Positions 138-24,237 of a stretch of 64,000 nucleotides of DNA are shown in pieces. Position 1 is the first letter of the stretch, and every line of letters starts with the position of its first letter. This stretch comes from an uncultured Psychroserpens sp. (lineage in GTDB: Bacteria > Bacteroidota > Bacteroidia > Flavobacteriales > Flavobacteriaceae). A model generated the notes under the pieces. The model saw only the letters and a program-made list of their open reading frames with translations. It ran no database searches and was not told where the DNA came from. Both the position numbers and the translations under genes were made by a program. The stretch lies in assembly GCF_947500255.1 (NCBI RefSeq), contig NZ_CANMRL010000003.1:434001-498000 (forward strand), read 5' to 3'.

Positions 138-180
138 TGAGCAATATCATTTCTTAGATATCACATTATAAATAGATTTG
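138..180 (+). promoter_or_regulatory. TGA-N6-TCA activator promoter for ldhA
   Basis: Operator TGAGCAATATCA lies at 138-149 and the -10-like element TAGATTTG at 173-180, a start-to-start spacing of 35 nt. The inferred transcription start (~185) leaves a 22-nt leader before the ATG at 207. No other gene is visible in positions 1-206. One of 16 promoters in this window with the same layout. Confidence 0.75.
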
Positions 181-206
181 CTCTATATAACATTTAGTAA
201 TAGAAC

Positions 207-1199
207 ATGAAAGTATTAATCTATAGTGCCAAAGATTTTGAGATTCCATATTTAATACAAGCCAATAATAAAAAGCATACATTGAGCTTTACAGAAGAGG
301 CCTTATCATCTGAAACAGCCATGAAAGCTGTAGGCTATGATGCTATTTCAATATTTTCGGCAGATGAAGCTTGTTTTATCACTATCGAAAAGCTTAAGGA
401 TTTCGGTATAAAATATATAACACTTAGATCGGTTGGTTACGATAATGTTAACTTAAGAACTGCTAAACGATTACATATAAAAGTTGCTAATGTACCTGCC
501 TATTCGCCGTATGCTATTGCCGAACACGCAGTCGCTCTGTTGCAAACACTAAACAGAAAGCTAATTGAATCCAATTTTAGAGTCAATCACTATAATTTTA
601 ACCTCAATGGTCTTGTTGGTTTTGATCTCAACCAAAAGACCGTCGGTATCATTGGCACAGGAAAAATTGGCTCTGTCATGAGTCGGATAATGTATGGTTT
701 TGGTTGTACCTTATTAGGCTATGACATTGAAGAAAATGTAGTATTGAAAGAACGATATAATATGCGCTACACTACGTTAAAGGAATTATGTAATCAAGCA
801 GATATTATCTCTTTACATCTTCCTTTAAATACCGAAACCCATCAACTTATTAATGACGATTTAATTTCTGAAATGAAAGATGGAGTTATTCTTATCAATA
901 CTGCAAGAGGTGCTATTATCAATACAGAAGATGTCATAGAAGGTCTTAAAAACAAAAAGATTGGTGCTCTAGGTATGGATGTTTATGAAAATGAAAAAAG
1001 CATATTCTTTAAAAACCGGTCTCAAGAATTACCTAATGACGATCTCCTTCTGAAATTAAATGCCATGCCAAATGTTCTAATAACGGGACATCATGCATTC
1101 TTAACCGAAGAAGCACTCACAAATATTGCAGAGACCACTATCTACAATTTAAATTGCTGGGATTCTGGTAAAGACACCGAAAATGAATTAACTAATTAA
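207..1199 (+). CDS. ldhA: D-lactate dehydrogenase (2-hydroxyacid dehydrogenase family)
   Basis: NAD-dependent fermentative D-lactate dehydrogenase that reduces pyruvate to D-lactate in the cytosol. The 330-residue length matches E. coli LdhA, and the sequence follows it closely from end to end. The Rossmann motif GTGKIG is at 150-155. The catalytic triad reads as Arg234, Glu263 and His295, with the same spacing as characterised D-LDHs, and the GHHAFLTEEAL segment is typical. It is a single-gene unit behind a TGA-N6-TCA promoter and converges on a decayed HMA gene whose stop overlaps its 3' end by 12 nt. Placement in this regulon suggests a role under oxygen or redox limitation (inference). 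Another D-2-hydroxyacid dehydrogenase specificity is possible. Confidence 0.88.
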   Translation: MKVLIYSAKDFEIPYLIQANNKKHTLSFTEEALSSETAMKAVGYDAISIFSADEACFITIEKLKDFGIKYITLRSVGYDNVNLRTAKRLHIKVANVPAYSPYAIAEHAVALLQTLNRKLIESNFRVNHYNFNLNGLVGFDLNQKTVGIIGTGKIGSVMSRIMYGFGCTLLGYDIEENVVLKERYNMRYTTLKELCNQADIISLHLPLNTETHQLINDDLISEMKDGVILINTARGAIINTEDVIEGLKNKKIGALGMDVYENEKSIFFKNRSQELPNDDLLLKLNAMPNVLITGHHAFLTEEALTNIAETTIYNLNCWDSGKDTENELTN

Positions 1200-1411
1200 T
1201 TTATTTTCAGTCCCAACAATTGGGTAACCGATTCTAGATAGCACACGTTTTGCATTGTCGAAATCGTAATGGGTTTGATAATTAAAAGAGGTTGTATTAG
1301 CTTCAATATTCACATCAACATCACCAATATGTTTTACCTGAGATAATGCATTAATTATGTTCTTTTACAACCACAACTCTTCAGGTTTTCTATATGAACT
1401 GTTGCTCTCAT
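1188..1411 (-). pseudogene. Frameshifted HMA-domain (heavy-metal-associated) small protein
   Basis: Reading from ATG 1411 gives MRATVHIENLKSCGCKR and then a stop. Moving to the next frame near 1358-1366 continues as NIINALSQVKHIGDVDVNIE... through to RIGYPIVGTENKLIS and a stop at 1188. The joined product of ~73 residues has the beta-alpha-beta pattern of HMA copper-chaperone domains. One base seems to be missing in an A/T-rich run. The usual CxxC metal site reads SCGC, so it is also degraded. It has its own regulon-type promoter (1430-1472). A sequencing error is the main alternative. Confidence 0.6.
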
Positions 1412-1429
1412 GATATAATTTTTCGATCC

Positions 1430-1472
1430 TTAAACTAGTTGAAATACTCTACTAATGAAATGATATTCATCA
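1430..1472 (-). promoter_or_regulatory. TGA-N6-TCA promoter for the HMA pseudogene
   Basis: Operator 1461-1472 reads TGATGAATATCA on the minus strand. The -10-like element TAGTTTAA covers 1437-1430, again at 35-nt spacing. The inferred start (~1425) lies 14 nt before ATG 1411. It is back to back with the mlaE promoter, 11 nt away. Confidence 0.55.
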
Positions 1473-1483
1473 GTATTAATAGC

Positions 1484-1526
1484 TGACACAAATCATTTGA
1501 CACACCAGAGCTTAACCATACATTTG
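1484..1526 (+). promoter_or_regulatory. TGA-N6-TCA promoter for the Mla operon
   Basis: Operator TGACACAAATCA is at 1484-1495 and a perfect TACATTTG at 1519-1526, with 35-nt spacing. The inferred start (~1531) gives a 17-nt leader to ATG 1548. Confidence 0.8.
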
Positions 1527-4225: not shown

Positions 4226-4597
4226 CTACTTTTGTGGTTCTGCAGCTCTTTTATTTGCTGAAATTTTCTCAATCATATCTGGTACTTTTTCAAAAGCAGC
4301 GGCTAAACCATGTGCTTTACCTGCTTCTATAAATGAGATTTCGTCTTCTTTAGTCACTAAGAAACCAATAGGTTCAATACCTACTCCTGCACCTGCTCCC
4401 ATACCTTCACCTCGCTTGTTGCCTTTTCCTTCAACGCCTTCGCCTCCTCCTGAGCCAAATCCCATACCAACTTTAATGACTGGGACGCATTTAAACTGTC
4501 CTAATTCAAATTGGTTGCCAACTACTGTTTCAGTTTTGGCTTCAGACTTAATAAAGTCCGTAATTTTTCCTAATAATTCTTCAAAATGTAATTCCAT
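4226..4597 (-). CDS. GerW/YtfJ family protein
   Basis: 123 residues of the GerW (YtfJ) family, named from a Bacillus spore-germination protein but widespread in non-sporulating bacteria, where the role is unknown. The family pattern is clear: an amphipathic N-terminus (FEELLGKITDFIKSEAKTETVVG), VIPV-like VPVIKVGMGFGSGGGEG, a glycine-rich middle, then GAGAGVGIEPIGFLV. It lies 11 nt after the DUF2953-like gene, the same pairing as ytfI-ytfJ in Firmicutes. Confidence 0.82.
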   Translation of the reverse strand: MELHFEELLGKITDFIKSEAKTETVVGNQFELGQFKCVPVIKVGMGFGSGGGEGVEGKGNKRGEGMGAGAGVGIEPIGFLVTKEDEISFIEAGKAHGLAAAFEKVPDMIEKISANKRAAEPQK

Positions 4598-4608: not shown

Positions 4609-5115
4609 TTAAATGTTAATAAATGATCTTATCATACGAATTGGTCTATTCTCAACAGATAGTAATATTTTATTTCTTCCTTCATAATTAACGCCTAAAT
4701 GATGTCCTCTATAAAAATTTAGAAATGCAAAAATTGGATATAATTTCGAATTCGAAATACAATCTCCAGTATCAATATCTAACTGAAACTGTTTGATCTT
4801 AAACGATTTTAATACTCTAAATACTTTTTTGAATGGGATACGCTTATCTCCTCTTTTTTTACTAGTGTTCGTTTTAACTGCTTTAGTCTTTGACCGCTTT
4901 TTTTTCTGGAGTGGGTAAACAAAAAAATTAAAGAAGAACACCTTGAAATGAATTTTAAAAATTTCAGCTTCATCGGGCTCAATACTTGCCTTTAACAAAC
5001 CTTTTATTTTTATAAAATATTGGTTGGTCGAAGTGTCAATATAGAAGACAATCGGAACCAATAATAAATAAATGATTGCTAGCAAAAATATGATCAAAAG
5101 TATGTAGAATACCAT
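4609..5115 (-). CDS. DUF2953-like membrane-anchored protein (YtfI-like)
   Basis: 168 residues with an N-terminal transmembrane segment (FYILLIIFLLAIIYLLLVPIVF) and a following beta-rich part (YFIKIKGLLKASIEPDE) as in DUF2953 proteins. A basic linker (QKKKRSKTKAV...KKRGDKR) lies near 95-118. The C-terminus (LNFYRGHHLGVNYEGRNKILLSVENRPIRMI) fits the same family. The assignment leans partly on its position directly before the GerW-like gene. It has its own promoter at 5130-5173. Function is unknown. Confidence 0.6.
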   Translation of the reverse strand: MVFYILLIIFLLAIIYLLLVPIVFYIDTSTNQYFIKIKGLLKASIEPDEAEIFKIHFKVFFFNFFVYPLQKKKRSKTKAVKTNTSKKRGDKRIPFKKVFRVLKSFKIKQFQLDIDTGDCISNSKLYPIFAFLNFYRGHHLGVNYEGRNKILLSVENRPIRMIRSFINI

Positions 5116-5129: not shown

Positions 5130-5173
5130 GTAAAGTACGATCAATTAAAGGTCTAACACAATGATATTAATCA
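5130..5173 (-). promoter_or_regulatory. TGA-N6-TCA promoter for DUF2953/gerW-like pair
   Basis: The operator at 5162-5173 reads TGATTAATATCA on the minus strand. The -10-like element TACTTTAC begins at 5137, a spacing of 36 nt, the only case that is not 35. The inferred start is about 10 nt before ATG 5115. Confidence 0.6.
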
Positions 5174-5192: not shown

Positions 5193-5576
5193 CTATAAAT
5201 TTTTTCGTTGACTCCTAAGATACCAGCTTATGACAAAAAGCGATCCCAAGAGTGGTATTAATGACGTTAATCCCAAAATAATCCACCAAAAATTTGGACC
5301 TCTAAAATTAAAAAAATAGACCAGCCACAAACCAGAAATAATAATTAATATACCACCAAATAGTTCTCTTTTCCTAGCTACAAAAACCAATACAATAAGT
5401 AAAATCCAAGGCAATCCATTTGGACTATTTCTTAAGACGCCTTCAATACCTCCTCCATAATCTGTAGAACCAGACAATATAGAAAAAGCCAGCAGCAAAC
5501 TAGCAATTAGCAACAGGCCATAACGTGCTATATACCTTAACATTGTTGCTGTTTTATTTGTGTTATTACTACTCAC
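5193..5576 (-). CDS. Small four-helix membrane protein, unknown function
   Basis: 127 residues with about four hydrophobic helices: near 15-33 (YGLLLIASLLLAFSILSG), 55-66, 74-90 and 97-119. A short basic C-terminus (RSQRKNL) follows. No catalytic motif is visible and I do not recognise a named function. It lies 14 nt after the flavin-binding protein gene and so probably belongs to the operon that starts at 6577. Confidence 0.7.
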   Translation of the reverse strand: MSSNNTNKTATMLRYIARYGLLLIASLLLAFSILSGSTDYGGGIEGVLRNSPNGLPWILLIVLVFVARKRELFGGILIIISGLWLVYFFNFRGPNFWWIILGLTSLIPLLGSLFVISWYLRSQRKNL

Positions 5577-5590: not shown

Positions 5591-6052
5591 TTAATCTTTA
5601 TGCCTTCTCATTTTCCCTGTGATTTCATCAATTTTTATTAAAAAAATAATAGGAAAATCGTCTTTATATATCTGACTAGAAAACTGGCTTATAAAATCAA
5701 GTTTTCTATGCTCTTTTCTAACAATTAAATCTTTCACGCCTAGAGAGAAATCATGCAAATGTGCTTTAGCTTCACTTCCATACAGTTCTTGGTAATGCCC
5801 ATGAACCAGAATAGAATCCCAAGTATTCACAGAATCTATTTCAGAAACTTCCATAGAAACAGCTGTATGCTTTCGCATAGCTTTTACCTTATGACCTTCA
5901 GCGGAATATCCTATTATAGCATTGATGTTTTTATCATAGAAATAGGTTATTGGTGCGATAAAAGGTTTGCCATTATAGATATATGACAAATGACCTATAT
6001 AGTTATTAGCCAAAATGCGAATACACTCATTGTCGTTTAGATGTCTTATCAT
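5591..6052 (-). CDS. Pyridoxamine 5'-phosphate oxidase-like FMN-binding protein
   Basis: 153-residue split-barrel flavoprotein of the PPOX/NimA-like superfamily. Visible features are the N-terminal LNDNECIRILANNYIGHLSY, the GKPFIAPITYFYD strand pair and GYSAEGHKVKAMRKHTAVSMEV, the usual FMN phosphate-binding and dimer region. Proteins of this type reduce or bind flavin, and nitroimidazole reductases belong here; the substrate is not evident. It sits in an operon with a flavodoxin-like protein (13 nt upstream) and a small membrane protein. Confidence 0.8.
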   Translation of the reverse strand: MIRHLNDNECIRILANNYIGHLSYIYNGKPFIAPITYFYDKNINAIIGYSAEGHKVKAMRKHTAVSMEVSEIDSVNTWDSILVHGHYQELYGSEAKAHLHDFSLGVKDLIVRKEHRKLDFISQFSSQIYKDDFPIIFLIKIDEITGKMRRHKD

Positions 6053-6064: not shown

Positions 6065-6577
6065 TTAATGACTCTTAAGTATTATTTCTAGTTTACTAAG
6101 CGCTTGTTTAACCATAACCAGACTATTTTCTGACTTTGATTCGCCAGTAATAGCATCCACATCATCCATTTTACGAGATCCTTCTCCAGATGTTGTAATA
6201 ACTACTATTCTTTCACTGTATGGTTTAGTTCTCTCTACAAAAGTTTCGATTGACTTAGGTGGTTTCCAGTTCTCCCATGTATGTATAAGTACTAAGGCAC
6301 TATAGCTTCTTGGCTCAATATCTTTCAACTCGGAAATATCTACTACTTTGATATATATAGAATCCTCTTTAAAGTGGTCAATTATAGTTGTAGTGAGTTT
6401 GCCTTTAAATTCACTTCCTTGGGTGGCAATAAGTAGTTTCTGACTGTATTCAGGAGAATTTACATCGAAACTCTCTGCTACATCCATAGAATATGTTTGC
6501 TGATACCAAATTGAAATAAAAAATAGTAATCCAATTATAGTTCCTACTAGAACAAGTATCTTTTTAGTTCGAGACAT
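6065..6577 (-). CDS. Membrane-anchored flavodoxin-like fold protein
   Basis: 170 residues with an N-terminal membrane anchor (about 7-26, ILVLVGTIIGLLFFISIWY). The rest resembles a flavodoxin fold: KLLIATQGSEFKGKLTTTIIDHF as the first strand/loop/helix, ALVLIHTWENWKPP as the central strand, and RIVVITTSGEG. The phosphate-binding loop is not canonical, so FMN binding is uncertain. It is first in a three-gene operon with a PPOX-like flavoprotein, which supports a redox role (inference). Confidence 0.6.
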   Translation of the reverse strand: MSRTKKILVLVGTIIGLLFFISIWYQQTYSMDVAESFDVNSPEYSQKLLIATQGSEFKGKLTTTIIDHFKEDSIYIKVVDISELKDIEPRSYSALVLIHTWENWKPPKSIETFVERTKPYSERIVVITTSGEGSRKMDDVDAITGESKSENSLVMVKQALSKLEIILKSH

Positions 6578-6598: not shown

Positions 6599-6641
6599 TT
6601 AAATTAACCCATACAGCATTGTTTTACTATGATAAAAATCA
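6599..6641 (-). promoter_or_regulatory. TGA-N6-TCA promoter for the 6577-5193 operon
   Basis: The operator at 6630-6641 reads TGATTTTTATCA on the minus strand, with TAATTTAA at 6606-6599 and 35-nt spacing. The inferred leader to ATG 6577 is ~17 nt. Confidence 0.65.
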
Positions 6642-6681: not shown

Positions 6682-7305
6682 TTATAAATTGCTTTTCTTT
6701 AAGCGTCTCTTATCTCTGTAAGCCCAATAAATTCCTTTAACATCAGATGCCCAATGCGGATACATGAAAATAAGTGTAATCTCTTCAAAGGTTTCTAGTA
6801 ATCCGATACCTATCATGATATAAAAAAGGATATAATTTGGATCAAAGAACAGTGCATATAAAATAAATGCACTTTGCATAACCGCTGAAAGCTTTGCCAA
6901 ATAGGTGTGAAAAGCTGTGGCTTTACCATATTTAAAATACGCGATCAACATTTGTATGATATACGGAACAAAAGCAATAGCAATTAATAAAACATTCTTT
7001 ATAATGAATTCTTTTTCAAAATAAAACAAGGCAATCAACCCAACAACAAGTGTAATTTGATCGCCAAAAGAATCTAATTGAGATCCTCTAGGGCTCGTAA
7101 TCTTAAGCTTCCTGGCTAAGAATCCGTCAATAGCATCTGTTGCATAACTTACGGCTAATAAACTCGCACATATTAGCTGTTGATCAAACCAAATAAAGCC
7201 TAATATGAAAGGTGCTGCTGCGATTCTGTAGAATGAAAACCAATCGGCAATATTATAATTTTTAAATGTTAGCATAGTAACGTATTGAGGATAATCTAAC
7301 TTCAA
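6682..7305 (-). CDS. CDP-alcohol phosphatidyltransferase family protein
   Basis: Membrane enzyme that joins an alcohol to a CDP-activated lipid head. The family signature D-x2-DG-x2-AR-x8-G-x3-D-x3-D is complete in DAIDGFLARKLKITSPRGSQ followed by LDSFGD (residues about 56-81). The remainder is hydrophobic with about five further helices. Length 207 is typical. It is too divergent to assign PgsA, PssA or another specificity by eye. It is a single gene sharing a divergent operator with a 50-residue membrane protein. The lipid theme recalls the Mla genes in the same regulon. Confidence 0.82.
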   Translation of the reverse strand: MKLDYPQYVTMLTFKNYNIADWFSFYRIAAAPFILGFIWFDQQLICASLLAVSYATDAIDGFLARKLKITSPRGSQLDSFGDQITLVVGLIALFYFEKEFIIKNVLLIAIAFVPYIIQMLIAYFKYGKATAFHTYLAKLSAVMQSAFILYALFFDPNYILFYIMIGIGLLETFEEITLIFMYPHWASDVKGIYWAYRDKRRLKKSNL

Positions 7306-7339: not shown

Positions 7340-7382
7340 GAAAAGTAATTGAAAATTAAAAATTTAGAAATGACATTGATCA
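7340..7382 (-). promoter_or_regulatory. TGA-N6-TCA promoter (leftward arm of shared operator)
   Basis: The operator at 7371-7382 (TGATCAATGTCA on the minus strand) is followed by TACTTTTC at 7347-7340, with 35-nt spacing. The inferred leader to ATG 7305 is ~30 nt. Confidence 0.7.
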
Positions 7383-7413
7383 TTTTACATACGACTCTTA
7401 TCATTTAATTTTA
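7371..7413 (+). promoter_or_regulatory. TGA-N6-TCA promoter (rightward arm of shared operator)
   Basis: The same 12-bp operator (TGACATTGATCA) is followed on the plus strand by TAATTTTA at 7406-7413, also at 35-nt spacing. The inferred leader to ATG 7437 is ~19 nt. One palindrome serves both directions. Confidence 0.7.
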
Positions 7414-7436: not shown

Positions 7437-7589
7437 ATGAAAAAACAAAACATTTGGGTTATTTTTCTCACCTTAGGATTAATTTGGATCATTGTTGGTC
7501 TTGGTATATATCCAAATACAGGAATTTGGCCACTAGGCGTCATTTTTTTAATTGTTGGCATGTTACTAAAAATTGGTACTGTAAAATAA
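7437..7589 (+). CDS. 50-residue two-helix membrane protein
   Basis: Short ORF: MKKQNIWVIFLTLGLIWIIVG, a turn (LGIYPNTGIWP), then a second helix (LGVIFLIVGMLLKIG) and a lysine end. The two well-formed transmembrane segments with a positively charged N-terminus, and a regulon-type promoter at the right distance, argue that it is real. No function is recognised. It ends 4 nt before the stop of the converging ABC ATPase gene. Confidence 0.65.
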   Translation: MKKQNIWVIFLTLGLIWIIVGLGIYPNTGIWPLGVIFLIVGMLLKIGTVK

Positions 7590-7593: not shown

Positions 7594-8268
7594 TTAGCTA
7601 ATAATTTTCCCGTCACCCATTTGAATGATTCTATCTGTTTTATTGGCAAAATCTTCGTCATGGGTCACCACGAGAAGCGATAAACCTTGCTCCTCACTCA
7701 ACTGTTTAAAAATATTAAATACATTTTCAGAATTATAGCTGTCTAAATTTCCTGTAGGTTCATCTCCCATGATAATCGATGGGTTGTTTATAAGCGCTCT
7801 CGCAATAGCAACACGCTGTTTTTCTCCACCAGAAACTCGTGATGCTCGTTTTTTTGCCAAATGATCTATATTTAGAATCTTTAGTTTATTCATGGCATCA
7901 TGCTCTATTTCCTGTAGCGTTTTTTCTCCTAATTTTTTAGCAGGCAGCATCACATTTTCCAATACGGAAAATTCAGATAGTAAATAATGAAACTGAAATA
8001 CAAAACCTATATGCTTGTTGCGCAAATATGATAAATGTTCTCTTGTTTCATTGGTTACCAATTTCTGATTTAAAAACAGCTCGCCCTCATAATCAGTATC
8101 CATTGTAGAAAGAATATACAGCAATGTAGATTTTCCGCAACCAGACTTACCCATAATTGAAGTAAACTCACCTTGTCTAATTTGAAAGTTGATATCCTTT
8201 AGCACATGAAATAATACCGGTTTTTTGAAGTATTTGTTGATATGTTTTGCTTCTAGTACAACACTCAT
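7594..8268 (-). CDS. ABC transporter ATP-binding protein (LolD/MacB type)
   Basis: 224-residue ATPase. Walker A GKSGCGKST, Q-loop FVFQFHYLLSEFSVLENVMLP, signature RVSGGEKQRVAIARAL, Walker B IIMGDEPTGNLDS and THD are all present; the GNLDS and LLSEFSVLENV segments mark the LolD/MacB/FtsE group. I take ATG 8268 (MSVVLEAKH) as the start because it lies just after the permease stop at 8270; the longer reading frame to 8376 would run backwards into the permease and adds 36 residues without a family match. It pairs with the FtsX-like permease and adaptor upstream. Confidence 0.9.
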   Translation of the reverse strand: MSVVLEAKHINKYFKKPVLFHVLKDINFQIRQGEFTSIMGKSGCGKSTLLYILSTMDTDYEGELFLNQKLVTNETREHLSYLRNKHIGFVFQFHYLLSEFSVLENVMLPAKKLGEKTLQEIEHDAMNKLKILNIDHLAKKRASRVSGGEKQRVAIARALINNPSIIMGDEPTGNLDSYNSENVFNIFKQLSEEQGLSLLVVTHDEDFANKTDRIIQMGDGKIIS

Positions 8269-8269
8269 T

Positions 8270-11272: not shown

Positions 11273-11315
11273 CAAAATTAGTATGGAACACATTGCTATA
11301 AAATGATATTGGTCA
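11273..11315 (-). promoter_or_regulatory. TGA-N6-TCA promoter for the WG protein/ABC exporter operon
   Basis: The operator at 11304-11315 reads TGACCAATATCA on the minus strand. The perfect TAATTTTG at 11280-11273 has 35-nt spacing. The inferred leader to ATG 11245 is ~23 nt. Confidence 0.78.
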
Positions 11316-11757: not shown

Positions 11758-11800
11758 TAAATATAAATGCTTTAATGGGTACCTCACATGATATAAATCA
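11758..11800 (-). promoter_or_regulatory. TGA-N6-TCA promoter for the TerB-like gene; possible autoregulatory site
   Basis: The operator at 11789-11800 reads TGATTTATATCA on the minus strand, with TATATTTA at 11765-11758 and 35-nt spacing; the leader to ATG 11734 is ~19 nt. On the plus strand no -10-like element sits at 35 nt, but the operator is 67 nt before the kinase ATG and could influence it. Confidence 0.68.
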
Positions 11801-14807: not shown

Positions 14808-14850
14808 TGACTAATATCATTTATGAAATGACATCTTACTAATACATTTG
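14808..14850 (+). promoter_or_regulatory. TGA-N6-TCA promoter for the first universal stress gene
   Basis: Operator TGACTAATATCA is at 14808-14819 and perfect TACATTTG at 14843-14850, spacing 35 nt. The inferred leader to ATG 14871 is ~16 nt. It starts 8 nt after the response-regulator stop, so the usp transcript is separate from the kinase/regulator operon. Confidence 0.8.
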
Positions 14851-15731: not shown

Positions 15732-16110
15732 TTCAATTTTCTTAGCAAAATTTTGGGGATGGTATCTCCTGATATTCTTTTTTATCTTAAGTCTTAACCC
15801 AAAACGCATTAAGCAAATATTTAATGACCTAAATGATGAAAAATTTCTTATCATCTCATCATTTTTAGCAATTATAGTAGGCTTGGTAAACATTCAATTT
15901 CATAATATTTGGGACTTAAGTTATAAGCTAATCATTACAAGCATAGGTTGGATTTCGCTTATTATAGGCTTAGCGTTATTTATATTTCCTAAACCAACAG
16001 TTTCCTGGTTGGAACTAGCTAATATTAGATTTGTTCAGGTCATTTATATGCTTCTATTTTTTACAGGGCTCTTTTTACTTAATACGGCTTACGGTATCGT
16101 ACAGATATAG
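15724..16110 (+). CDS. Four-helix membrane protein, unknown function
   Basis: About 128 residues with four hydrophobic segments (FWGWYLLIFFFILSL, FLIISSFLAIIVGLV, LIITSIGWISLIIGLALFIF, VIYMLLFFTGLFLL). It overlaps the end of the preceding usp gene. Two starts are possible: ATG 15724 (8-nt overlap, chosen) and ATG 15706 (26-nt overlap). It is clearly cotranscribed with the usp gene. No family is recognised. Confidence 0.65.
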   Translation: MDNSIFLAKFWGWYLLIFFFILSLNPKRIKQIFNDLNDEKFLIISSFLAIIVGLVNIQFHNIWDLSYKLIITSIGWISLIIGLALFIFPKPTVSWLELANIRFVQVIYMLLFFTGLFLLNTAYGIVQI

Positions 16111-16118: not shown

Positions 16119-16161
16119 TGATAGATATCATTGCATGAAAACTAAGTTAAAATTATATTTA
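16119..16161 (+). promoter_or_regulatory. TGA-N6-TCA promoter for a candidate small RNA
   Basis: Operator TGATAGATATCA is at 16119-16130 and TATATTTA at 16154-16161, spacing 35 nt, exactly as in the protein-coding members. The only element downstream before the next promoter is a strong hairpin terminator. Confidence 0.72.
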
Positions 16162-16165: not shown

Positions 16166-16250
16166 GTCATTTTAGGGTGACTATCATATTGAGAGTGGGG
16201 ATTCTCAACTTTAAGAAAGCCAAACGCCTACGTTTGGCTTTCTTGGTTTA
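16166..16250 (+). ncRNA. Candidate regulated small RNA (~85 nt)
   Basis: Transcription from the promoter at 16119-16161 would start near 16166 and stop at the perfect 14-bp hairpin at 16213-16244. A second small stem (TGAGAG...TTCTCA, around 16190-16207) lies upstream. No convincing ORF fits; a GTG frame reads through the hairpin and has no ATG. Ends are estimates. The alternative is a leftover promoter from a lost gene. Confidence 0.55.
16213..16250 (+). terminator. Strong intrinsic terminator
   Basis: AAGAAAGCCAAACG (16213-16226), loop CCTA, then CGTTTGGCTTTCTT (16231-16244): 14 perfect base pairs. The 3' arm ends in pyrimidines rather than a long T-run, followed by GGTTTA. Confidence 0.8.
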
Positions 16251-16293
16251 CTTAATACAAGATAATTATGTATCTCACTAGTAAGTATTCATC

Positions 16294-16336
16294 TGATATA
16301 TATCATTGTTTTTACATCATCTACCGCTTAATTTTA
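16294..16336 (+). promoter_or_regulatory. TGA-N6-TCA promoter for usp pair
   Basis: Perfect 12-bp palindrome TGATATATATCA at 16294-16305, TAATTTTA at 16329-16336, spacing 35 nt. The inferred leader to ATG 16362 is ~21 nt. Confidence 0.78.
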
Positions 16337-16361: not shown

Positions 16362-17210
16362 ATGTTTTCAATACTTCTACCTACCGATTTCTCTGAAAAT
16401 TCAATGAATGCCATTACATATGCCTTGGAGTTTTTTAAATACCAAAAAGCACAATTCTATTTTATGCATGCGTATCAAAATGAATTTTATGATCATGAAG
16501 ACCTTACCTCTCGAGAGGTCTTTGAAGATGTTTTAAATACAATTAGAACCACATCACAAGCCAACTTAGAAAAATTATTAGAAGAGGTTAAAAGCATTGC
16601 TCCAAATCCGAGATTTACCTATCATACTATTTCATCGTATAGCACACTTGTTGAGGAAGCAAACTTAATAGCAGAAGCAAGAAACATCGATCTGATTGTA
16701 ATGGGAACAAAGGGCAAATCTGATGAACGTCATATTGTATTTGGAAGTCATACATTCCAAGTATTAAAATATGTGCAATGTCCTGTATTGGCCATACCAT
16801 CAAATTATACCAACACTCAGCCCAAACACATATTATTTCCAACTAACTATCTAATTCCGTATAAGCGTCGAGAATTGAAACTCTTGTCTGAGCTAGCAAA
16901 GTCATACAGGAGCGTCATAGATGTTTTATACATCTCTAAAAGTGATAAACTATCAATACGACAAGAAGATAATCAAGCATTCATAAAAAACACATTAAAG
17001 GATAATCAGGTTAATTTTTATCATGAGGACAGTAAAAAAATAGCCGAGACCATTAAAAACTATATAAAAGATAACAATATAGACATGTTAACTATGGTCA
17101 ACACACAACATTCATTTTTAGAAGACATGCTATTTCCTTCAACAATAGATAAGGTGAGTTTAGGATTGGAAATACCACTTTTAGCAATGCAGAATTCAGC
17201 ACGATCATAA
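16362..17210 (+). CDS. Universal stress protein, tandem UspA domains
   Basis: 282 residues. Domain 1 starts SILLPTDFSENSMNAITYALEFF and has a nucleotide loop GTKGKSDERHIVFGSHT that fits G-x2-G-x9-G-S. Domain 2 (HILFPTNYLIPYKRREL) is degenerate and ends with the family's NTQHSFLEDMLFPSTIDKV segment. First of a two-gene unit; the next usp gene starts 14 nt after its stop. Confidence 0.9.
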   Translation: MFSILLPTDFSENSMNAITYALEFFKYQKAQFYFMHAYQNEFYDHEDLTSREVFEDVLNTIRTTSQANLEKLLEEVKSIAPNPRFTYHTISSYSTLVEEANLIAEARNIDLIVMGTKGKSDERHIVFGSHTFQVLKYVQCPVLAIPSNYTNTQPKHILFPTNYLIPYKRRELKLLSELAKSYRSVIDVLYISKSDKLSIRQEDNQAFIKNTLKDNQVNFYHEDSKKIAETIKNYIKDNNIDMLTMVNTQHSFLEDMLFPSTIDKVSLGLEIPLLAMQNSARS

Positions 17211-17224: not shown

Positions 17225-18079
17225 ATGAAACATATTCTATTACCTACCGATTTCTCTGAAAACGCATGGAATGCCATTACATATGCCATTACATTATTTA
17301 AAAATGAGGATTCCACCTTTTACTTATTGAATGCGTATACTCCTGTTATTTATCATGTCGAATATGTATTGGGATATCCAGCTCAATTTGGCTTAGGAGA
17401 TGTGATAAGAACTAATGCTCAAGAGAACTTAAATGAGACAGTTTCGAAAATTAAAGAAGAATTTGGAACGAATCCAAAACATATATTTGAAACCGAAGCT
17501 AAGTTTGACACCCTAACATCTGGTATAAAAGCATTTATGGAGAAACACCCTATTGATCTGATTGTGATGGGAACCAAAGGTGCTACTGGCGCCAAAGAAA
17601 TATTGTTTGGATCTAATACTGTCCACGTATTTAAAGACATTAAATGTCCTATTCTAGCCATTCCATTTGGTTTCGAATATGAATCTCCTCATGAGGTTCT
17701 ATTTCCTACAGATTTAGAGGTAGATTATAATAAAACACACTTAGATATTCTTCATGATATAGCAAAGTCCCATCATTCTAGAGTTAACGCCATGCATATT
17801 TCTACAGGTTATGATATAACCGATTTACAAGAAAAGAATAAATCAAGTTTAGAGTTGATATTCAAGGACGCAGCATTTCTATTTCATGATATCAAAAGCA
17901 TGAATATTTTAGAAGGAATTAATGCATTTCAAGTGAAGTACAAAATTAATTTATTGGTCATGATTAATAATAAACATTCCTTTTTTGAAAACTTATTTTT
18001 CAAGAATACGATTAATCAAATTGGATTTCATTTAAATATTCCATTCTTAGTGATTCCTCCAAAAAAGATAAACCTATAG
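17225..18079 (+). CDS. Universal stress protein, tandem UspA domains
   Basis: 284 residues. The N-terminus HILLPTDFSENAWNAITYAITLF is nearly identical to that of its upstream neighbour, indicating recent duplication. The nucleotide loop GTKGATGAKEILFGSNTV is intact in domain 1; domain 2 (EVLFPTDLEVDYNKTHL) lacks it. No operator lies in the 14-nt gap, so it should be cotranscribed with the previous gene. Confidence 0.9.
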   Translation: MKHILLPTDFSENAWNAITYAITLFKNEDSTFYLLNAYTPVIYHVEYVLGYPAQFGLGDVIRTNAQENLNETVSKIKEEFGTNPKHIFETEAKFDTLTSGIKAFMEKHPIDLIVMGTKGATGAKEILFGSNTVHVFKDIKCPILAIPFGFEYESPHEVLFPTDLEVDYNKTHLDILHDIAKSHHSRVNAMHISTGYDITDLQEKNKSSLELIFKDAAFLFHDIKSMNILEGINAFQVKYKINLLVMINNKHSFFENLFFKNTINQIGFHLNIPFLVIPPKKINL

Positions 18080-18122
18080 TGATTTATATCATTTCATAGC
18101 CTAATTGCAAATCTTAATTTTC
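18080..18122 (+). promoter_or_regulatory. TGA-N6-TCA promoter for a usp gene
   Basis: Operator TGATTTATATCA at 18080-18091 begins right after the preceding stop; TAATTTTC at 18115-18122, spacing 35 nt. The inferred leader to ATG 18148 is ~21 nt. Confidence 0.75.
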
Positions 18123-18147: not shown

Positions 18148-18978
18148 ATGAAAAAAAACATCTTATTCCCAACAGATTTTTCAGATAATGCTTGGAGTGC
18201 TATTGTTTACGCATTAAAACTATATGTCGAAGTTGAATGTAAATTCTATTTTTTACACTCTACGAAAATGAGCGTTTCAACAATGTCAAATTTTTCAAAT
18301 AAATTATTGAAGGTTATGTCTGAAAATGCCATGAAAGAACTTGTAGAATTGAAAACTATGGCAGAAGTTTCAAACGCCAATGCTAATCATGAGTTTGAAA
18401 TCATTTTAAGTCCTGATGACATTGAGACTGCTGTAAAATCATCAATAAAAAAACATCAAATCGACTTGATGGTTATGGGAACTAAAGGCGCAACAGGTGC
18501 CAAGGAATTTTTCTTCGGAAGCAATACCGTACGAATTATAAAAAAAGTGAAAGGCTGTCCTATCCTAGTGGTTCCAAACGAGTTTAACTTTGTACCGCCT
18601 AAGCAAATAGCATTTCCCACAGATTATACTAGATTTTATGATGATAAGGAATTAAGACCATTAAAGGATCTAGCAGACCTGTTTGATTCTAAGATCTTAC
18701 CTGTTTGTATTCTATCCAAAGACAAGTTGACAGATATCCAAGAGTATAATATGACCATGCTTAAAAACTATCTAGAACACTATAATACGAGTTTTCATTT
18801 CATGCCAAATTATGCTAAAAAAACAGATGAAATTAATGATTTCATCGCGTTATTAGAAATAGATATGTTAGCCATGATAAATTATAAACACAGTTTTATT
18901 GAGAGCATTATAAAAGAACCTATTATCAAAAAAATTGGGTTTCATCCCATAATTCCATTTTTAGTCATTTCAGAATAA
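18148..18978 (+). CDS. Universal stress protein, tandem UspA domains
   Basis: 276 residues. Domain 1 begins NILFPTDFSDNAWSAIVYALKLY and has nucleotide loop GTKGATGAKEFFFGSNTV. Domain 2 (QIAFPTDYTRFYDDKEL) is shorter and lacks the loop, ending with NYKHSFIESIIKEPIIKKI. It appears to be a single-gene transcript with its own operator. Confidence 0.9.
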   Translation: MKKNILFPTDFSDNAWSAIVYALKLYVEVECKFYFLHSTKMSVSTMSNFSNKLLKVMSENAMKELVELKTMAEVSNANANHEFEIILSPDDIETAVKSSIKKHQIDLMVMGTKGATGAKEFFFGSNTVRIIKKVKGCPILVVPNEFNFVPPKQIAFPTDYTRFYDDKELRPLKDLADLFDSKILPVCILSKDKLTDIQEYNMTMLKNYLEHYNTSFHFMPNYAKKTDEINDFIALLEIDMLAMINYKHSFIESIIKEPIIKKIGFHPIIPFLVISE

Positions 18979-18983: not shown

Positions 18984-19026
18984 TGATATATATCATTTTG
19001 CACCTTATATCTGTGAAGTACTTTTA
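18984..19026 (+). promoter_or_regulatory. TGA-N6-TCA promoter for usp and downstream gene
   Basis: Perfect palindrome TGATATATATCA at 18984-18995, TACTTTTA at 19019-19026, spacing 35 nt. The inferred start (~19031) rules out an upstream ATG at 18998 and supports ATG 19049 as the real start of the next gene. Confidence 0.78.
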
Positions 19027-19915: not shown

Positions 19916-20323
19916 ATGAAACATACAGGCATCTGGTTAGATAAAGACAAAGCGCTCATTATTACCATTGAAAAGGAGCAAGAAACATTACAAACTATTC
20001 CATCTAATATAGAACATTACCGCATTCATGGTGGATCTGGAACACGGTTTAAAGGTGGTCCTCAGGATGTAGTGCAAGACAGTAAATATTTAGAACGGGA
20101 AAAGCATCAACTCAAACAATACTTTAAAACTATTGTTGAGGAAATCAAGGATACAGATGCATTAGTAATTTTTGGACCTGCTGGAACCAATGAAAAACTT
20201 AACGAAGAATTACAAAAAAATTATAAGTCTTTGAGTACAAAAATAAAAGGTGTGCAAAAGGCAGATAGCATGACAGACAATCAAGTCAAGGCATGGGTAA
20301 GACACTTTTTCAAGTCGAATTAG
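19916..20323 (+). CDS. Small eRF1/host-attachment-like protein, function unknown
   Basis: 135 residues. The N-terminus KHTGIWLDKDKALIITIEKEQETLQTI and the later DALVIFGPAGTNEKLNEELQ resemble short proteins related to the eRF1 domain-3 / host-attachment group common beside stress genes in Bacteroidota. The middle (HGGSGTRFKGGPQDVVQDSKYLEREKHQLKQYF) is charged. The assignment is by impression only. It is cotranscribed with the preceding usp gene and followed by a terminator. Confidence 0.5.
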   Translation: MKHTGIWLDKDKALIITIEKEQETLQTIPSNIEHYRIHGGSGTRFKGGPQDVVQDSKYLEREKHQLKQYFKTIVEEIKDTDALVIFGPAGTNEKLNEELQKNYKSLSTKIKGVQKADSMTDNQVKAWVRHFFKSN

Positions 20324-20479: not shown

Positions 20480-20522
20480 TGATAATTATCATTTCAAAAA
20501 ACACATTTCAATAGTACATTCC
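20480..20522 (+). promoter_or_regulatory. TGA-N6-TCA promoter for the hsp20 operon
   Basis: Perfect palindrome TGATAATTATCA at 20480-20491. The -10-like element TACATTCC at 20515-20522 is at 35 nt but less canonical. The inferred leader to ATG 20558 is ~31 nt. Confidence 0.7.
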
Positions 20523-20557: not shown

Positions 20558-21010
20558 ATGTCACTTATCAAATTTAACAACAGAAATAGATTATTCCCTT
20601 CATGGAGTAATGATAAACTTAAAGATTTTTTAAGCTCAGATGATTTCTTTCATACAGACTTCTTTGAAGAAGATAGTCTTATGCCAGCAATGAATGTAAA
20701 AGAACACGATAACGATTACGAAATCGAATTTGCTGCGCCAGGCTTTTCAAAAACAGATTTCGAAGTTACAATCGATGAAAACATCCTTAATGTTTGCGGA
20801 GAGAAAAAGAAAGAGGAAGAGAAAAAAGAAGAAGATTATACACGACGTGAATTTAGCTATAATTCTTTCAAAAGATCACTTACATTACCAAAATCAGTTA
20901 ATATTGATCAAGATATAAAAGCCACTTATAAGGATGGTATTTTAAAACTAAATCTTAAAAAGAAAGACGAAGCAAAAGAAGCGTTTAAGAAAAAGATAGA
21001 AGTGCTTTAA
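20558..21010 (+). CDS. Hsp20/alpha-crystallin small heat-shock protein
   Basis: 150-residue ATP-independent holdase chaperone. The alpha-crystallin domain spans about 42-135: MPAMNVKEHDNDYEIEFAAPGFSKTDFEV, then FKRSLTLPKSVNIDQDIKATYKDGILKLNL with the family's A-x4-GIL motif. The C-terminal I-x-V motif (KIEVL) used for oligomer assembly is present. A lysine/glutamate-rich loop (GEKKKEEEKKEE) lies near 86-97. First gene of a three-gene unit. Confidence 0.93.
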   Translation: MSLIKFNNRNRLFPSWSNDKLKDFLSSDDFFHTDFFEEDSLMPAMNVKEHDNDYEIEFAAPGFSKTDFEVTIDENILNVCGEKKKEEEKKEEDYTRREFSYNSFKRSLTLPKSVNIDQDIKATYKDGILKLNLKKKDEAKEAFKKKIEVL

Positions 21011-21074: not shown

Positions 21075-21524
21075 ATGAAAACTATACAAACACACGCGCA
21101 TTATATTGAATGGCTAAGTGCAGATCAAATGCACGAGGCTTCCAAAGAGTGGCTTTCAGAATTAAACTTTATAAAAGATGAACACCGCTTCTTTGAAGAC
21201 CTAATTACAACATATACATCACAATTAATAGCTCCAAAACGGTTTTCAGATACGAAAGAGATTATTGATGAACTATATAAATCTCAAAAGCAAAACGACC
21301 TCCTCATTGAAGTTGTCAAAACCCATGAGAATGAACTACAAATCATGGTTGATGGTGTAGACCAAATCAAAGAAGAAAGTGCCTATACAAAAGCGCATAA
21401 AGGTCTGGTAGATATCATTAATGAGTTTTTAAAAGATTATAAAACCCTGAAAACTCAACTTTTTGATCTCATAAAAAATATGAAGAGAGAAGAAAAACAA
21501 GACCATCAAATTGATAAAAAATAA
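21075..21524 (+). CDS. Coiled-coil protein, unknown function
   Basis: 149 residues, helical and charged, with WLSELNFIKDEHRFFEDLITTYTSQL near the start and heptad-like stretches through residue 140. No membrane segment or signal. I do not recognise a family. It lies 64 nt after hsp20 and its stop is 10 nt before the next gene's ATG, so it is probably part of the hsp20 operon. Confidence 0.7.
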   Translation: MKTIQTHAHYIEWLSADQMHEASKEWLSELNFIKDEHRFFEDLITTYTSQLIAPKRFSDTKEIIDELYKSQKQNDLLIEVVKTHENELQIMVDGVDQIKEESAYTKAHKGLVDIINEFLKDYKTLKTQLFDLIKNMKREEKQDHQIDKK

Positions 21525-21534
21525 TGTTAGTATC

Positions 21535-22206
21535 ATGAAAAAACTACTTTACATATGTATTCTATTGCTATTAGCAAACTGTTCTTCAACACAGCTAGTA
21601 GATCATTGGAGAAATCCAGACATTGGTATTTATGAACCTTATAAGGTTCTTGTTGTTGGCTTAACTTCTGATTATGGAGCAAGAGATAAATTTGAAACGA
21701 AACTTAAGAATGAACTAGAACTTAGAGGCTCTGAAGCAGTTATGGGATTAAACGTATTAGATCAAACACCTAAAACGGATAAGATGACCGAAGATGAATT
21801 GATTGCCTTAGAAAGTCAGTTAATTGCAGACGGATTTGACACCATTCTATTTACAAAGATTATTGGTGTAGAAGACAAGATTAAGTATCGCAAAAATTAT
21901 AAAGGTCGAGATGAAACGTATCGAAAATTCAAAGATGAATATTTAATGTATCAGGATGTGTTTTTTAATCCGGATTATTACGAAGATTATAAGATCTATA
22001 AGGCCGAAACGTCCATGTATTGTATTTGCCCTACAAAAGATAGAGAACTCATATGGAAAGGTTATATCGATATCACAGATCCTGAATCGATAGAAAAGGC
22101 TGTAAATGATTATGTGAGATTAGTCATCGTTGTTTTAGAAGAAGAACAATTAATAAACCGCATAAATACTCAAAAAGAAGACATTAAGGACGCTGTTGTA
22201 AATTAG
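21535..22206 (+). CDS. Lipoprotein, unknown function
   Basis: 223 residues. The start at ATG 21535 gives a clean lipoprotein signal (MKKLLYICILLLLANCSSTQ, lipobox LANC); an in-frame ATG at 21511 lies inside the previous gene and would spoil the signal. The body has a Rossmann-like beginning (KVLVVGLTSDYGARDKFETKLKNELELRGSEAV) and IADGFDTILFTKIIGVED, similar in layout to DUF4136-like envelope lipoproteins. Last gene of the hsp20 unit. Confidence 0.75.
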   Translation: MKKLLYICILLLLANCSSTQLVDHWRNPDIGIYEPYKVLVVGLTSDYGARDKFETKLKNELELRGSEAVMGLNVLDQTPKTDKMTEDELIALESQLIADGFDTILFTKIIGVEDKIKYRKNYKGRDETYRKFKDEYLMYQDVFFNPDYYEDYKIYKAETSMYCICPTKDRELIWKGYIDITDPESIEKAVNDYVRLVIVVLEEEQLINRINTQKEDIKDAVVN

Positions 22207-22212
22207 CCAAAA

Positions 22213-23289
22213 CTAATTGACTTTTGCAAAATAATACAATCCAGAAGATGTCAAGTCTATCTCTTTTAAGTTGCGATATCGTTCAGCGAGTTCACTTCTT
22301 AATAACTTGTTTTTCATTGTCGTAATCTTCTTAAATTTAATTTCAAAGTTATATTTTTTCAGCAAATTTAAATGTGTAGAAATAGGCTCTCTGTTAATTA
22401 AATTAATGCCTCCAGTAACAATCTTCCATTCTTTGACACTGTAAGTCCAATGACCATTCCAAAGCTTAGATGTGTTTAATGATCTTAAATCTACAGTATG
22501 AGAAATGCAACCACCCTTCTTTAACCAACGATTCATTTTTTCATACATAAAATCTAGGTCGTTAATATGTTGCAAAACTGTATGAGAGCATATAAGGTCG
22601 ACCGTATGATCTTCAATGTGTTCTTTATCCGACCAAGGAATAATAGATCTCACAAATGTATTATTTGGATTATGAGGATGCTCTAGTTCATTTCTGATTT
22701 TTTCTATTCTGTCTTTCTCCAAACATTTCTCTAAATGCTCATTAGTCAATAGGTGATTTATAGAATTCTCTTCCCTGTTGTTAGAATTAATCTCCTTTTG
22801 AAAACGTTCTACCAATTCGTCAAAAATTCTCAAATTGGTGGAATCATTCCAAAATTGGGTTTTTTCCAAAGCATAAAATTTTGAGGCTCCTGACAACAAC
22901 GCTGAAAGACCTACACCCAAAGAATTACCAGAGCCAATTTCGATAACTACATCTGGAACACTGTCATTTAATTTACGCCAATTTCCGAAATGTTGCATCC
23001 AGATATTATAGCAATATTCGCTCTTACTAGCGGCATACTCTTTATTAATAAGAATACTTCTAGCTAAAGCAGAGTTATTTATAAAAAACTTAGCCGTAGC
23101 TCTTATCCTTCCTTTGAGATACCCTTTAGTGAGGCTTTTATATTTGTCTAACACAATGATATAGATTAATCGATTTACTTTTTTATTGGCAGAACCTTTA
23201 TCAGATAATGCCTCCATTAAGTAGTTTGATTTTATGAAGAATGTGGAGCTAATTTTATCTAAATTACTAAAAATAAAGCGGTTAGACAA
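22213..23289 (-). CDS. SAM-dependent methyltransferase
   Basis: 358 residues. A class I methyltransferase fold is visible in the middle: motif I VVIEIGSGNSLGVGLSALL (about 125-143), ALEKTQFW, then DLICSHTVLQHINDLDFMYEKMNRWLKKGGCISHTVDLR, typical of post-motif II/III. N-terminal ~110 residues are basic and helical. The substrate is unknown; similar proteins modify sugars or lipids. It lies 25 nt after the usp gene read in the same direction and is presumably cotranscribed. Confidence 0.75.
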   Translation of the reverse strand: MSNRFIFSNLDKISSTFFIKSNYLMEALSDKGSANKKVNRLIYIIVLDKYKSLTKGYLKGRIRATAKFFINNSALARSILINKEYAASKSEYCYNIWMQHFGNWRKLNDSVPDVVIEIGSGNSLGVGLSALLSGASKFYALEKTQFWNDSTNLRIFDELVERFQKEINSNNREENSINHLLTNEHLEKCLEKDRIEKIRNELEHPHNPNNTFVRSIIPWSDKEHIEDHTVDLICSHTVLQHINDLDFMYEKMNRWLKKGGCISHTVDLRSLNTSKLWNGHWTYSVKEWKIVTGGINLINREPISTHLNLLKKYNFEIKFKKITTMKNKLLRSELAERYRNLKEIDLTSSGLYYFAKVN

Positions 23290-23314
23290 ATCACCTGTCT
23301 ACACGAGTATAATA

Positions 23315-24172
23315 TCACTTTATATAAAATGATCCAGTATTCTCCATGACAAGTAATGGTACTTTTAAATTGAACGCAAAACTCTCAGCAGGATGCGTCA
23401 CAAATAATCGCTCTAAAAATGAATGTTTTCTACTCATCATAGTAAGCAAACCTATATCATTGTCATTAATATAATTGGTAATCACTTTGAACAGTTTATC
23501 CTCTTCAAGTTCTACAAACGAGTGATTAACTTTTGAAAAACAAGAGTCTAAATATGCTCTGTTATTTTCTTGATATTCGGTAAGATGCTCCGAATCCTTG
23601 ACATGAATAACATGCACATTATAGTTGTTGAGCTCAACCAAATTAATTAATGGTACGAGATCTTCAGAGTTATATGCTGTATAATAATTTGATGGAAATG
23701 CTACATCATTTATTTTTGAGTACGTATAGTTGTTAGGGATTGCTAACACTGGACAAGAACAGCGTTGAATAACTCTTACTGTATGTGATCCAAATAGTTT
23801 CTTGCTCATGGTTGAAGCGCCTCGTGTTCCCATAACAATCATATCAATTTGCTCAAGATCAATGAGCTGGTTAATCCCATCGATAAAATTGTCATAATCT
23901 ACTTTTGCTTCAAAATCATGCAACGTATTTTGATAGTCCTTTTTCAAAGTTCTTATAAGTGTCTTTACTTTTGTCTTCGCTGAGTCAATCAAAGAGTCAA
24001 ATATAGTCTCCGAAGGTTGCATAGCCATCAAATCATCTGACACAAATGATGACACTTTCTGAATATTTAGTACAAAGAATTTACAAGGTTCATTTTGATA
24101 AAAATCCATTGCATAACGAATTGCATTAAGGGAGTTATCTGAGAAATCTGTTGGTAACAATATCTTTTTCAT
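23315..24172 (-). CDS. Universal stress protein, tandem UspA domains
   Basis: 285 residues, the sixth double-domain Usp and the only one on the minus strand. Domain 1 starts KILLPTDFSDNSLNAIRYAMDFY with loop GTRGASTMSKKLFGSHTV. Domain 2 (DVAFPSNYYTAYNSEDL) lacks the loop and ends SRKHSFLERLFVTHPAESF. Transcribed from the promoter at 24195-24237. Confidence 0.9.
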   Translation of the reverse strand: MKKILLPTDFSDNSLNAIRYAMDFYQNEPCKFFVLNIQKVSSFVSDDLMAMQPSETIFDSLIDSAKTKVKTLIRTLKKDYQNTLHDFEAKVDYDNFIDGINQLIDLEQIDMIVMGTRGASTMSKKLFGSHTVRVIQRCSCPVLAIPNNYTYSKINDVAFPSNYYTAYNSEDLVPLINLVELNNYNVHVIHVKDSEHLTEYQENNRAYLDSCFSKVNHSFVELEEDKLFKVITNYINDNDIGLLTMMSRKHSFLERLFVTHPAESFAFNLKVPLLVMENTGSFYIK

Positions 24173-24194
24173 AATTAGTGATTTTGATGTTACT

Positions 24195-24237
24195 CTAAAT
24201 TACTAAGCTTTGTTCAAAAAAATTATGACATTTATCA
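24195..24237 (-). promoter_or_regulatory. TGA-N6-TCA promoter for the minus-strand usp gene
   Basis: The operator at 24226-24237 reads TGATAAATGTCA on the minus strand, with TAATTTAG at 24202-24195 and 35-nt spacing. The leader to ATG 24172 is ~18 nt. The plus strand has no -10-like element at 35 nt. This is the last such site I see in the window. Confidence 0.68.

Follow-up and report, generated by a model that had tools for sequence, protein, structure and literature searches.

A 64-kb stretch of DNA from an uncultured Psychroserpens sp. (Flavobacteriaceae; contig NZ_CANMRL010000003.1, positions 434,001–498,000; hereafter the window) carries within its first 24.3 kb a dense array of palindromic TGA-N6-TCA operators that are set at a fixed distance from TAnnTT promoter elements. 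A gene pair specifying a sensor histidine kinase and a response regulator lies among them, the kinase gene overlapping that of its partner, in which a receiver is joined to a CRP-type regulator (REC-CRP). The best explanation, with a probability of roughly 0.75, is that the 16 promoters of the array constitute a class II regulon of REC-CRP, that a FixL-like kinase drives REC-CRP, and that the output is a low-oxygen response resembling those of the DosR regulon and the lxa locus. REC-CRP most likely is the activator of the window promoters.

The first-pass annotation of the window had reported 15 operators that produce 16 promoters, and all 15 were recovered at matching coordinates, with the operator at 7371 working in both directions. 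The distance from the start of the operator to the start of TAnnTT was 35 nt in 15 of the 16 promoters and 36 nt in the remaining one (5162). When operator and TAnnTT patterns were paired across the window, 15 pairs occurred at a spacing of 35, whereas other spacings had on average 0.7 pairs and never more than 3; here and for the related loci described below the background comprised spacings of 13–74 with 33–37 excluded. The excess corresponds to a Poisson P of ~2e-15, which becomes 7e-7 when the highest of these counts (3) is used as the mean, and agrees with the initial judgment that the pattern is hard to explain by chance. No pair at spacing 35 was found in the window after 24.5 kb, as expected from the annotation, which gave no example beyond 24.3 kb. 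The consensus proposed at that stage, TGAYnwATATCA, was upheld in its core but not in its width. Letter −1 of the 15 spacing-35 operators was C in nine cases, A in five, G in one and never T, +12 was T in every case, and +13 was T in 12. As these flanking letters are biased, the motif is wider than described earlier and reads [C/A]TGA(T/C)nn(A)(T)(A)TCATTT over the 15 promoters. In the whole 4.0-Mb genome (13 contigs), the loose pair TGA-N6-TCA-N23-TAnnTT occurred 59 times versus 20 for the pattern read backward, and the strict pair TGAYNNNNRTCAT-N22-TAnnTT occurred 29 times versus none backward. Fourteen of these 29 strict pairs fall in the initial 24.3 kb of the window, a stretch that makes up 0.6% of the genome.

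Leaders were measured to the start codon from a predicted transcription start placed 12 nt past the initial T of TAnnTT. An ATG lies 10–31 nt past the predicted start at 13 window promoters, at one of which it opens a 50-aa frame only, and the minus-strand promoter at 1461 has a 14-nt leader into a broken frame. These cases fit the leaders of 10–31 nt claimed at the outset, whereas the gene at 6682 does so only via a TTG start (30 nt), the first ATG of the long frame being 60 nt away. The promoter at 16119 precedes no gene of ordinary size but a short candidate RNA, one hairpin of which is strong and resembles a terminator.

The arrangement recurs in related bacteria. Eighty loci around REC-CRP homologues (1.56 Mb in total; 53–73% identical) were assembled as the best 80 of at least 568 that were confirmed; some derive from strains of one species and hence are not independent. 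The record titles include Mariniflexile, Algibacter, Winogradskyella, Aquimarina and Maribacter, all of which are taken here to be Flavobacteriaceae. The loci possessed 484 pairs at spacing 35, compared to a mean of 23.2 (standard deviation 6.3; maximum 42) at other spacings and to 11 pairs at spacing 35 after Markov shuffling. A scan for a spacing peak, which had been suggested as a check on the window array, thus peaked at 35 both in the window and in the fetched loci, and shuffled loci lacked the peak. Half-site spacers of N3–N5 and N7–N11 elicited no comparable peak at spacings 30–41 in the 80 loci (the largest value was 32, for N11 at 35). Strict pairs numbered 2466 over 149 genomes of the family (148 genera) versus 171 for a backward-pattern control. 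At least one operator and up to 12 were present in each of the 80 REC-CRP loci. All but 34 of 459 sites in these loci were followed within 220 nt by an open reading frame (ORF) of 60 aa or more, and the distance from the −10 T to the ATG was 25–34 nt for 274 of the 425 sites with an ORF versus 20 of 133 pseudo-sites. A start-site map of Flavobacterium psychrophilum locates the sigma-A box TAnnTTTG at −12 to −5 (PMC9723704, in the available excerpt). With this box as reference the operators would occupy −47 to −36, with a center at −41.5, which is the class II position. The −33 region of the promoters at REC-CRP loci is T-rich and displays no conserved TTG.

The regulator has the Pfam order Response_reg, cNMP_binding and HTH_Crp_2, and all nine sequences compared share residues D52 and K104 of the receiver. 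Among 342 PDB matches, the best-scoring stretch covered both the REC and CRP parts in none of the best 60, and among 108 NCBIfam matches none of the best 25 reached the cut-off. Recognition helices of REC-CRP (IATES/TLIR) and FNR (TATESAIR) have the pattern E..IR in common, and in CRP the E and R of this helix read TGA. A cysteine cluster was not apparent by eye at the N-terminus of REC-CRP. A kinase homologue adjoins REC-CRP in 79 of the 80 loci, and the exception (L074) includes just 1.7 kb of upstream DNA.

The number of sites covaries with REC-CRP. Among the 149 family genomes, and with an orthologue defined by an identity of 49% or more along almost the entire protein, the median number of strict sites was 22.5 in the 62 genomes with an orthologue versus 6 in 83 without (Mann-Whitney P = 2e-15). 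The same contrast was evident within the genus of the window, in which 13 of 23 genomes possess REC-CRP and have a median of 29 sites compared to 8 in the 10 that do not (P = 2e-4). The flanks also differ: for four genomes with REC-CRP, 95 of 111 sites were listed and 41 of the 95 had T at +13, whereas for nine REC-CRP-free genomes all 169 sites were listed and 29 had it (P = 1e-5). Overall, the recurrent spacing, the position relative to the sigma-A box and the covariation of sites with REC-CRP favor the earlier proposal that the promoters form a regulon of class II CRP/FNR type, here linked to the local REC-CRP.

The operator array itself is silent on the signal; the kinase possesses a DosP/FixL-like PAS domain and a LOV domain. 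Thirteen of 16 solved-structure matches of the first PAS domain are named DosP/YddU, haem PAS or FixL; the other three comprise one multi-sensor kinase and, as the two weakest, blue-light or sensory-box proteins. Residue H64 aligns with what is taken to be the axial His position of DosP and is the candidate axial His. A pattern search located the His motif in 70 of the 79 adjacent kinases, and the nine that lack it include truncated frames and three full-size proteins (L061, L075, L134). The LOV domain is the second PAS of the window kinase and includes the sequence NCRFLQ with C179, which is present in only 12 of the 79 kinases. Thus, the kinases have the haem-type PAS in common, and LOV is an addition to it. 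In the window kinase LOV lies between two PAS domains and is a possible blue-light input. Low oxygen most likely is the signal.

Several observations weigh against this reading of the array. Fifteen of the 80 loci, some of them on short contigs, have only one or two sites, and no operator is present 5′ of the kinase gene in the window. Four family genomes with only a 40–45% identical REC-CRP homologue have a median of 31.5 sites, and 16 of the 83 orthologue-free genomes have at least 15; a profile re-search of 11 of these 16, several of which are incomplete, recovered no full-length REC-CRP and an FNR-size match in nine. One member of the genus (G391) possesses REC-CRP, but only eight strict sites. 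The genome counts ignore phylogeny. Within the genus, the +13 T difference is partial and weaker than that across the family (69 of 152 sites across the five REC-CRP genomes with complete listings versus three of 19 in two REC-CRP-free genomes, likewise complete; P = 0.014). The DosP distal-pocket positions, as presumed here to be those that matter, are not conserved in the PAS alignment, and therefore the domain may respond to O2, CO or NO, or to redox state. Twenty stretches around REC-CRP homologues from other families had nine pairs at spacing 35, whereas other spacings averaged 1.5 pairs and reached 10 at most. Finally, FNR/cbb3 promoters of the same genome have this core and spacing too, and some sites could belong to FNR or be common to both regulators.

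The distribution of the array beyond the closest homologues is delimited by two sets of data. A second REC-CRP subgroup in the family (L212–L223; e.g., L222, L217 and L214) is 39–45% identical and has its own arrays, with 70 pairs at spacing 35 versus a mean of 4.7 elsewhere in 12 stretches. The inner sequence of these operators often is CCTAGG, and the operators themselves often read TGACCTAGGTCATTT. A full-length REC-CRP homologue (E up to 1e-60) was detected in 38 of 247 genomes of the phylum, 22 of the 38 being outside the family. A motif used by all REC-CRPs was considered and dropped, as arrays are essentially absent around the distant proteins. As far as sampled, the operator array is a flavobacterial feature and not a property of all REC-CRPs.

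The overlap with FNR was assessed on a different contig of the same genome (L141, L142; G000:C2:375001-412000) on which an FNR-like gene neighbors genes that resemble cbb3, nos and hemN (by eye). The best NCBIfam match of the encoded protein is Fnr, below the cut-off. The same core and spacing occur on this contig 5′ of FixS-like, CBS-domain-like and cytochrome-like genes and of hemN. Therefore the core alone cannot name the regulator, but the flanks help. A total of 458 sites of REC-CRP loci were compared to 31 sites of 22 FNR-type stretches, most of which were centered on CRP/FNR-size matches, with one adjoining such a stretch and another (L172) chosen for its sites; some of the source genomes also possess REC-CRP, and one stretch (L173) itself holds the gene. 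Position −2 was A at 57% of REC-CRP-locus sites versus 19% of FNR-type sites, −1 was C (53%) or A (36%) at the former versus A at 87% of the latter, and +13 was T at 54% (A at 37%) versus T at 9% (P = 3e-15). The window operators, most with T at +13, are of the REC-CRP flank type and do not match the flanks of FNR loci, a distinction that holds on average only.

These data bear on two alternatives that involve FNR. Control by FNR and REC-CRP of overlapping sets of promoters, with flanks and phosphorylation setting the oxygen level at which each promoter responds, is somewhat unlikely and is compatible with the REC-CRP regulon; the mixed letters at +13 in REC-CRP loci and the common core speak for it, whereas the two groups of sites differ on average. 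It is improbable that the cluster is simply part of an FNR regulon in which the FNR-like protein binds the operators and REC-CRP acts elsewhere or is only a modulator. Although FNR-locus promoters have the same core and spacing, the recognition helices are related, and certain REC-CRP-free genomes have many sites, the flanks at −2, −1 and +13 differ, the medians within the genus separate genomes with and without REC-CRP, and each REC-CRP locus has 1–12 sites compared to 0–5 in the 22 FNR-type stretches. Usp, PNPOx, 11345-like and 19916-like genes also follow such sites in FNR-gene stretches, for the first three including some REC-CRP-free genomes, among them a Usp gene in G045 of the same genus, which fits an FNR regulon. 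The target families common to FNR stretches and the array point to low oxygen as a shared theme. The CRP box is GTGA/TCAC and the classical FNR box is TTGAT-N4-ATCAA; both the cAMP-CRP box and the canonical FNR box were rejected on their outer letters. Control of the cluster by a cAMP-responsive CRP accordingly is very improbable: the core TGA-N6-TCA is of CRP type, but the outer letters of GTGA/TCAC are absent, −1 mostly is C or A, +12 is T, and the site-linked gene specifies REC-CRP with a two-component partner. A compositional artefact is ruled out by the shuffles, the backward patterns and the spacing controls, even though both half-patterns are common in a window of 34% G+C.

Target genes of the proposed REC-CRP regulon were assigned by BLAST of the 425 downstream ORFs in the 80 loci against the window proteins. 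Usp genes predominated (179), followed by relatives of the genes at 11345–11734 (47) and 21075–21524 (18), and by Hsp20 (14), WG-repeat (13), PNPOx (6) and MlaE-like (6) genes. A further 123 ORFs were left unassigned and include the S30AE (ribosome hibernation) family (19), FixS/CcoS-like (9) and thioredoxin-like (9) proteins, labels that were obtained by scanning one representative of each. In the window, the six Usp proteins, hsp20 and candidate small RNA that had been named initially were all found in the array, as was the ldhA-like gene. The genes of the lipid ABC importer and the ABC exporter were likewise recorded, as named by eye. Of the flavoprotein candidates, one is PNPOx-like, and the product of the gene at 6065–6577 is flavodoxin-like by eye without a Pfam match. 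The gene at 11345–11734 had no Pfam or NCBIfam match.

In the proposed mechanism, the kinase would respond to low oxygen, or alternatively to the redox state or a related ligand of haem, via the N-terminal DosP/FixL-like PAS and would phosphorylate the receiver of REC-CRP. A dimer of the latter would bind [AC]TGAY-N4-RTCAT(T), centered at −41.5, and would recruit sigma-A RNA polymerase at a TAnnTTT box without a conserved −33 TTG. The output would be a survival set comprising Usp, Hsp20, fermentation and redox genes, membrane and export genes and a small RNA, to which relatives would add a ribosome-hibernation factor, thioredoxin and CcoS. The scheme would amount to the FixL-FixJ-FixK cascade compressed to one step with a DosR- or lxa-like output. 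A more specific version is possible and is offered tentatively, namely that in the Flavobacteriaceae a single kinase and a FixJ/FixK-like chimera control a dormancy regulon of DosR type that includes a small RNA of its own, and that a LOV domain inserted in the kinase of some members, that of the window among them, adds blue light to oxygen as an input of the survival program.

The candidate 86-nt RNA of the window has three predicted hairpins and a fold z of −5.3. Similar DNA lies 3′ of REC-CRP in two members of the genus (96% identical in G392; 84% over 126 nt in G394), and a third member has a match of ~62 nt at 81%. Across 29 genomes such DNA was confined to members of the genus, apart from a 24-nt match outside, and nhmmer found no homologue in the 80 loci. 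A longer RNA is present in relatives. The sequence GTTC(A/T)TT occurs within 40 nt of the predicted start at a site in 15 of the 80 loci, and alignment of 12 of the 15 revealed an RNA of ~200 nt that ends in a terminator hairpin and shows compensatory changes in four of 12 pairs. This RNA starts at the predicted start of the operator promoter and has a terminator of the type GAAACAGG-N-CCTGTTTC. A second similar stretch follows it in L066 and L075 (by eye). Homology of the window RNA to this longer conserved RNA was rejected on the lack of an nhmmer match. No Rfam family at threshold was obtained for the window RNA or for the ~200-nt RNA, for which six of the 80 loci were searched.

Table. Coordinates of the array, the signaling genes and the candidate RNAs (window positions unless a locus is named; leaders in nt from the predicted start)
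Feature	Coordinates	Strand	Promoter element, genes and remarks
Operator	138–149	+	TAnnTT 173–178; D-2-hydroxyacid dehydrogenase gene (ldhA-like) 207–1199; leader 22
Operator	1461–1472	−	TAnnTT 1432–1437; broken minus-strand frame ~1200–1411
Operator	1484–1495	+	TAnnTT 1519–1524; genes from 1548, lipid ABC importer-like (MlaE/F/D-like, by eye); leader 17
Operator	5162–5173	−	TAnnTT 5132–5137, spacing 36; gene 4609–5115, then YtfJ-family gene 4226–4597; leader 10
Operator	6630–6641	−	TAnnTT 6601–6606; gene 6065–6577, PNPOx-like gene 5591–6052, DUF7670 gene 5193–5576; leader 17
Operator	7371–7382	both	Divergent promoters, TAnnTT 7406–7411 (+) and 7342–7347 (−)
Plus-strand promoter of 7371		+	50-aa ORF at 7437; leader 19
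Minus-strand promoter of 7371		−	CDP-alcohol phosphatidyltransferase gene 6682–7305; leader 30 to TTG
Operator	11304–11315	−	TAnnTT 11275–11280; WG-repeat gene 10637–11245, HlyD-type gene 9532–10611; leader 23
ABC exporter-like genes (by eye)	8270–9532, 7594–8376	−	Same promoter set as 11304
Operator	11789–11800	−	TAnnTT 11760–11765; gene 11345–11734
Sensor histidine kinase	11868–13748	+	PAS ~12–126, LOV 137–259, third PAS, HisKA, HATPase
REC-CRP response regulator	13745–14800	+	Receiver, cNMP-type domain, Crp-type helix-turn-helix (HTH); proposed activator
Operator	14808–14819	+	TAnnTT 14843–14848; Usp gene 14871–15731, small gene 15706–16110; leader 16
Operator	16119–16130	+	TAnnTT 16154–16159; promoter of candidate small RNA
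Candidate small RNA	16166–16252	+	Three predicted hairpins, the last terminator-like
Operator	16294–16305	+	TAnnTT 16329–16334; Usp genes 16362–17210 and 17225–18079; leader 21
Operator	18080–18091	+	TAnnTT 18115–18120; Usp gene 18148–18978; leader 21
Operator	18984–18995	+	TAnnTT 19019–19024; Usp gene (ATG 19049, end 19903), gene 19916–20323; leader 18
Operator	20480–20491	+	TAnnTT 20515–20520; hsp20 gene 20558–21010, genes 21075–21524 and 21511–22206; leader 31
Operator	24226–24237	−	TAnnTT 24197–24202; Usp gene 23315–24172; leader 18
Conserved ~200-nt RNA	L061:12433–12633, L064:12442–12656, L105:12580–12814		Also in nine more loci

Other features of the window were recorded. The start of the broken small frame at 1200–1411 (−) resembles a heavy-metal-associated domain protein (by eye). 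Outside the array, the Rfam Flavo-1 RNA was matched at 28302–28372 (−; 55.8 bits), an ORF of 3108 aa at 33646–42972 (−) contains numerous near-identical repeats that look HYR-like, and three adjacent ORFs at 48720–54723 (+) are type I restriction-modification-like (R, M, S; by eye).

On the best reading, the mechanism is a new form of class II CRP/FNR control, a known type, that is coupled to a two-component system of FixL type. A literature search of titles and abstract openings, which mostly did not extend to subscription journals, produced no description of this REC-CRP or of the operator. The FixL-FixJ-FixK cascade of rhizobia and Burkholderia has a haem-type PAS kinase, a CRP/FNR-family output and low-oxygen targets, as is proposed here. 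In contrast, the CRP-type regulator of the window carries the receiver itself, so that neither a FixJ of LuxR-type HTH nor a FixK of its own is present, and some of the kinases also have a LOV domain. The DosR dormancy regulon of mycobacteria, which is under haem-sensing two-component control with a NarL/FixJ-type regulator, is a Usp-rich hypoxia regulon, as is proposed for the array, but the regulator here is of CRP type and not NarL/LuxR type, and no homology between the regulators is claimed. Class II promoters of FNR/ANR are alike in the TGA-N6-TCA core and the center at −41.5, which is predicted here, and the FNR-like gene of the same genome is flanked by the same spacing. They differ in the flanks at −2, −1 and +13, in the receiver that the regulator carries here, and in the outer T/A of TTGAT-N4-ATCAA, which is absent from the window operators.

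The available excerpt of PMC6127331 states that FixLJ stands over FixK, that the DosR regulon includes 10 Usp among 48 genes, and that the lxa locus of Burkholderia cenocepacia has six Usp and a heat shock protein and is tied to an ANR/FixK-like regulator. The local cluster in the window equally combines six Usp with a heat shock protein. However, the lxa locus belongs to another phylum with another kinase and regulator architecture, and a fixed-spacing operator array is not mentioned in that excerpt (PMC6127331). NmpRSTU of Myxococcus xanthus exerts haem-dependent multi-component control of cbb3 and hemN genes (PMC11841059, in excerpt); haem-dependent control of such genes is the point of likeness, whereas the NtrC-like regulator and protoglobin sensor are peculiar to NmpRSTU. 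MalR-like CRP/FNR homologues that answer to carbon sources were predicted in a metagenome-assembled genome of the Flavobacteriales (PMC8510549, in excerpt). These belong to the same order and the same family of regulators, but neither a receiver nor a link to oxygen is mentioned in the excerpted text (PMC8510549).

Members of the Flavobacteriaceae are abundant in soil and in marine and fresh waters. The family has been called understudied (PMC9723704, in excerpt). The present finding offers it a candidate oxygen regulator, a sharp operator and predicted targets in many genera, given that an orthologue of REC-CRP is present in 62 of the 149 family genomes. The contrast between presence and absence of REC-CRP within a single genus is testable by ordinary RNA-seq. 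If the proposal is true, the window array would represent another Usp-rich regulon for survival at low oxygen, built on a different kind of regulator.

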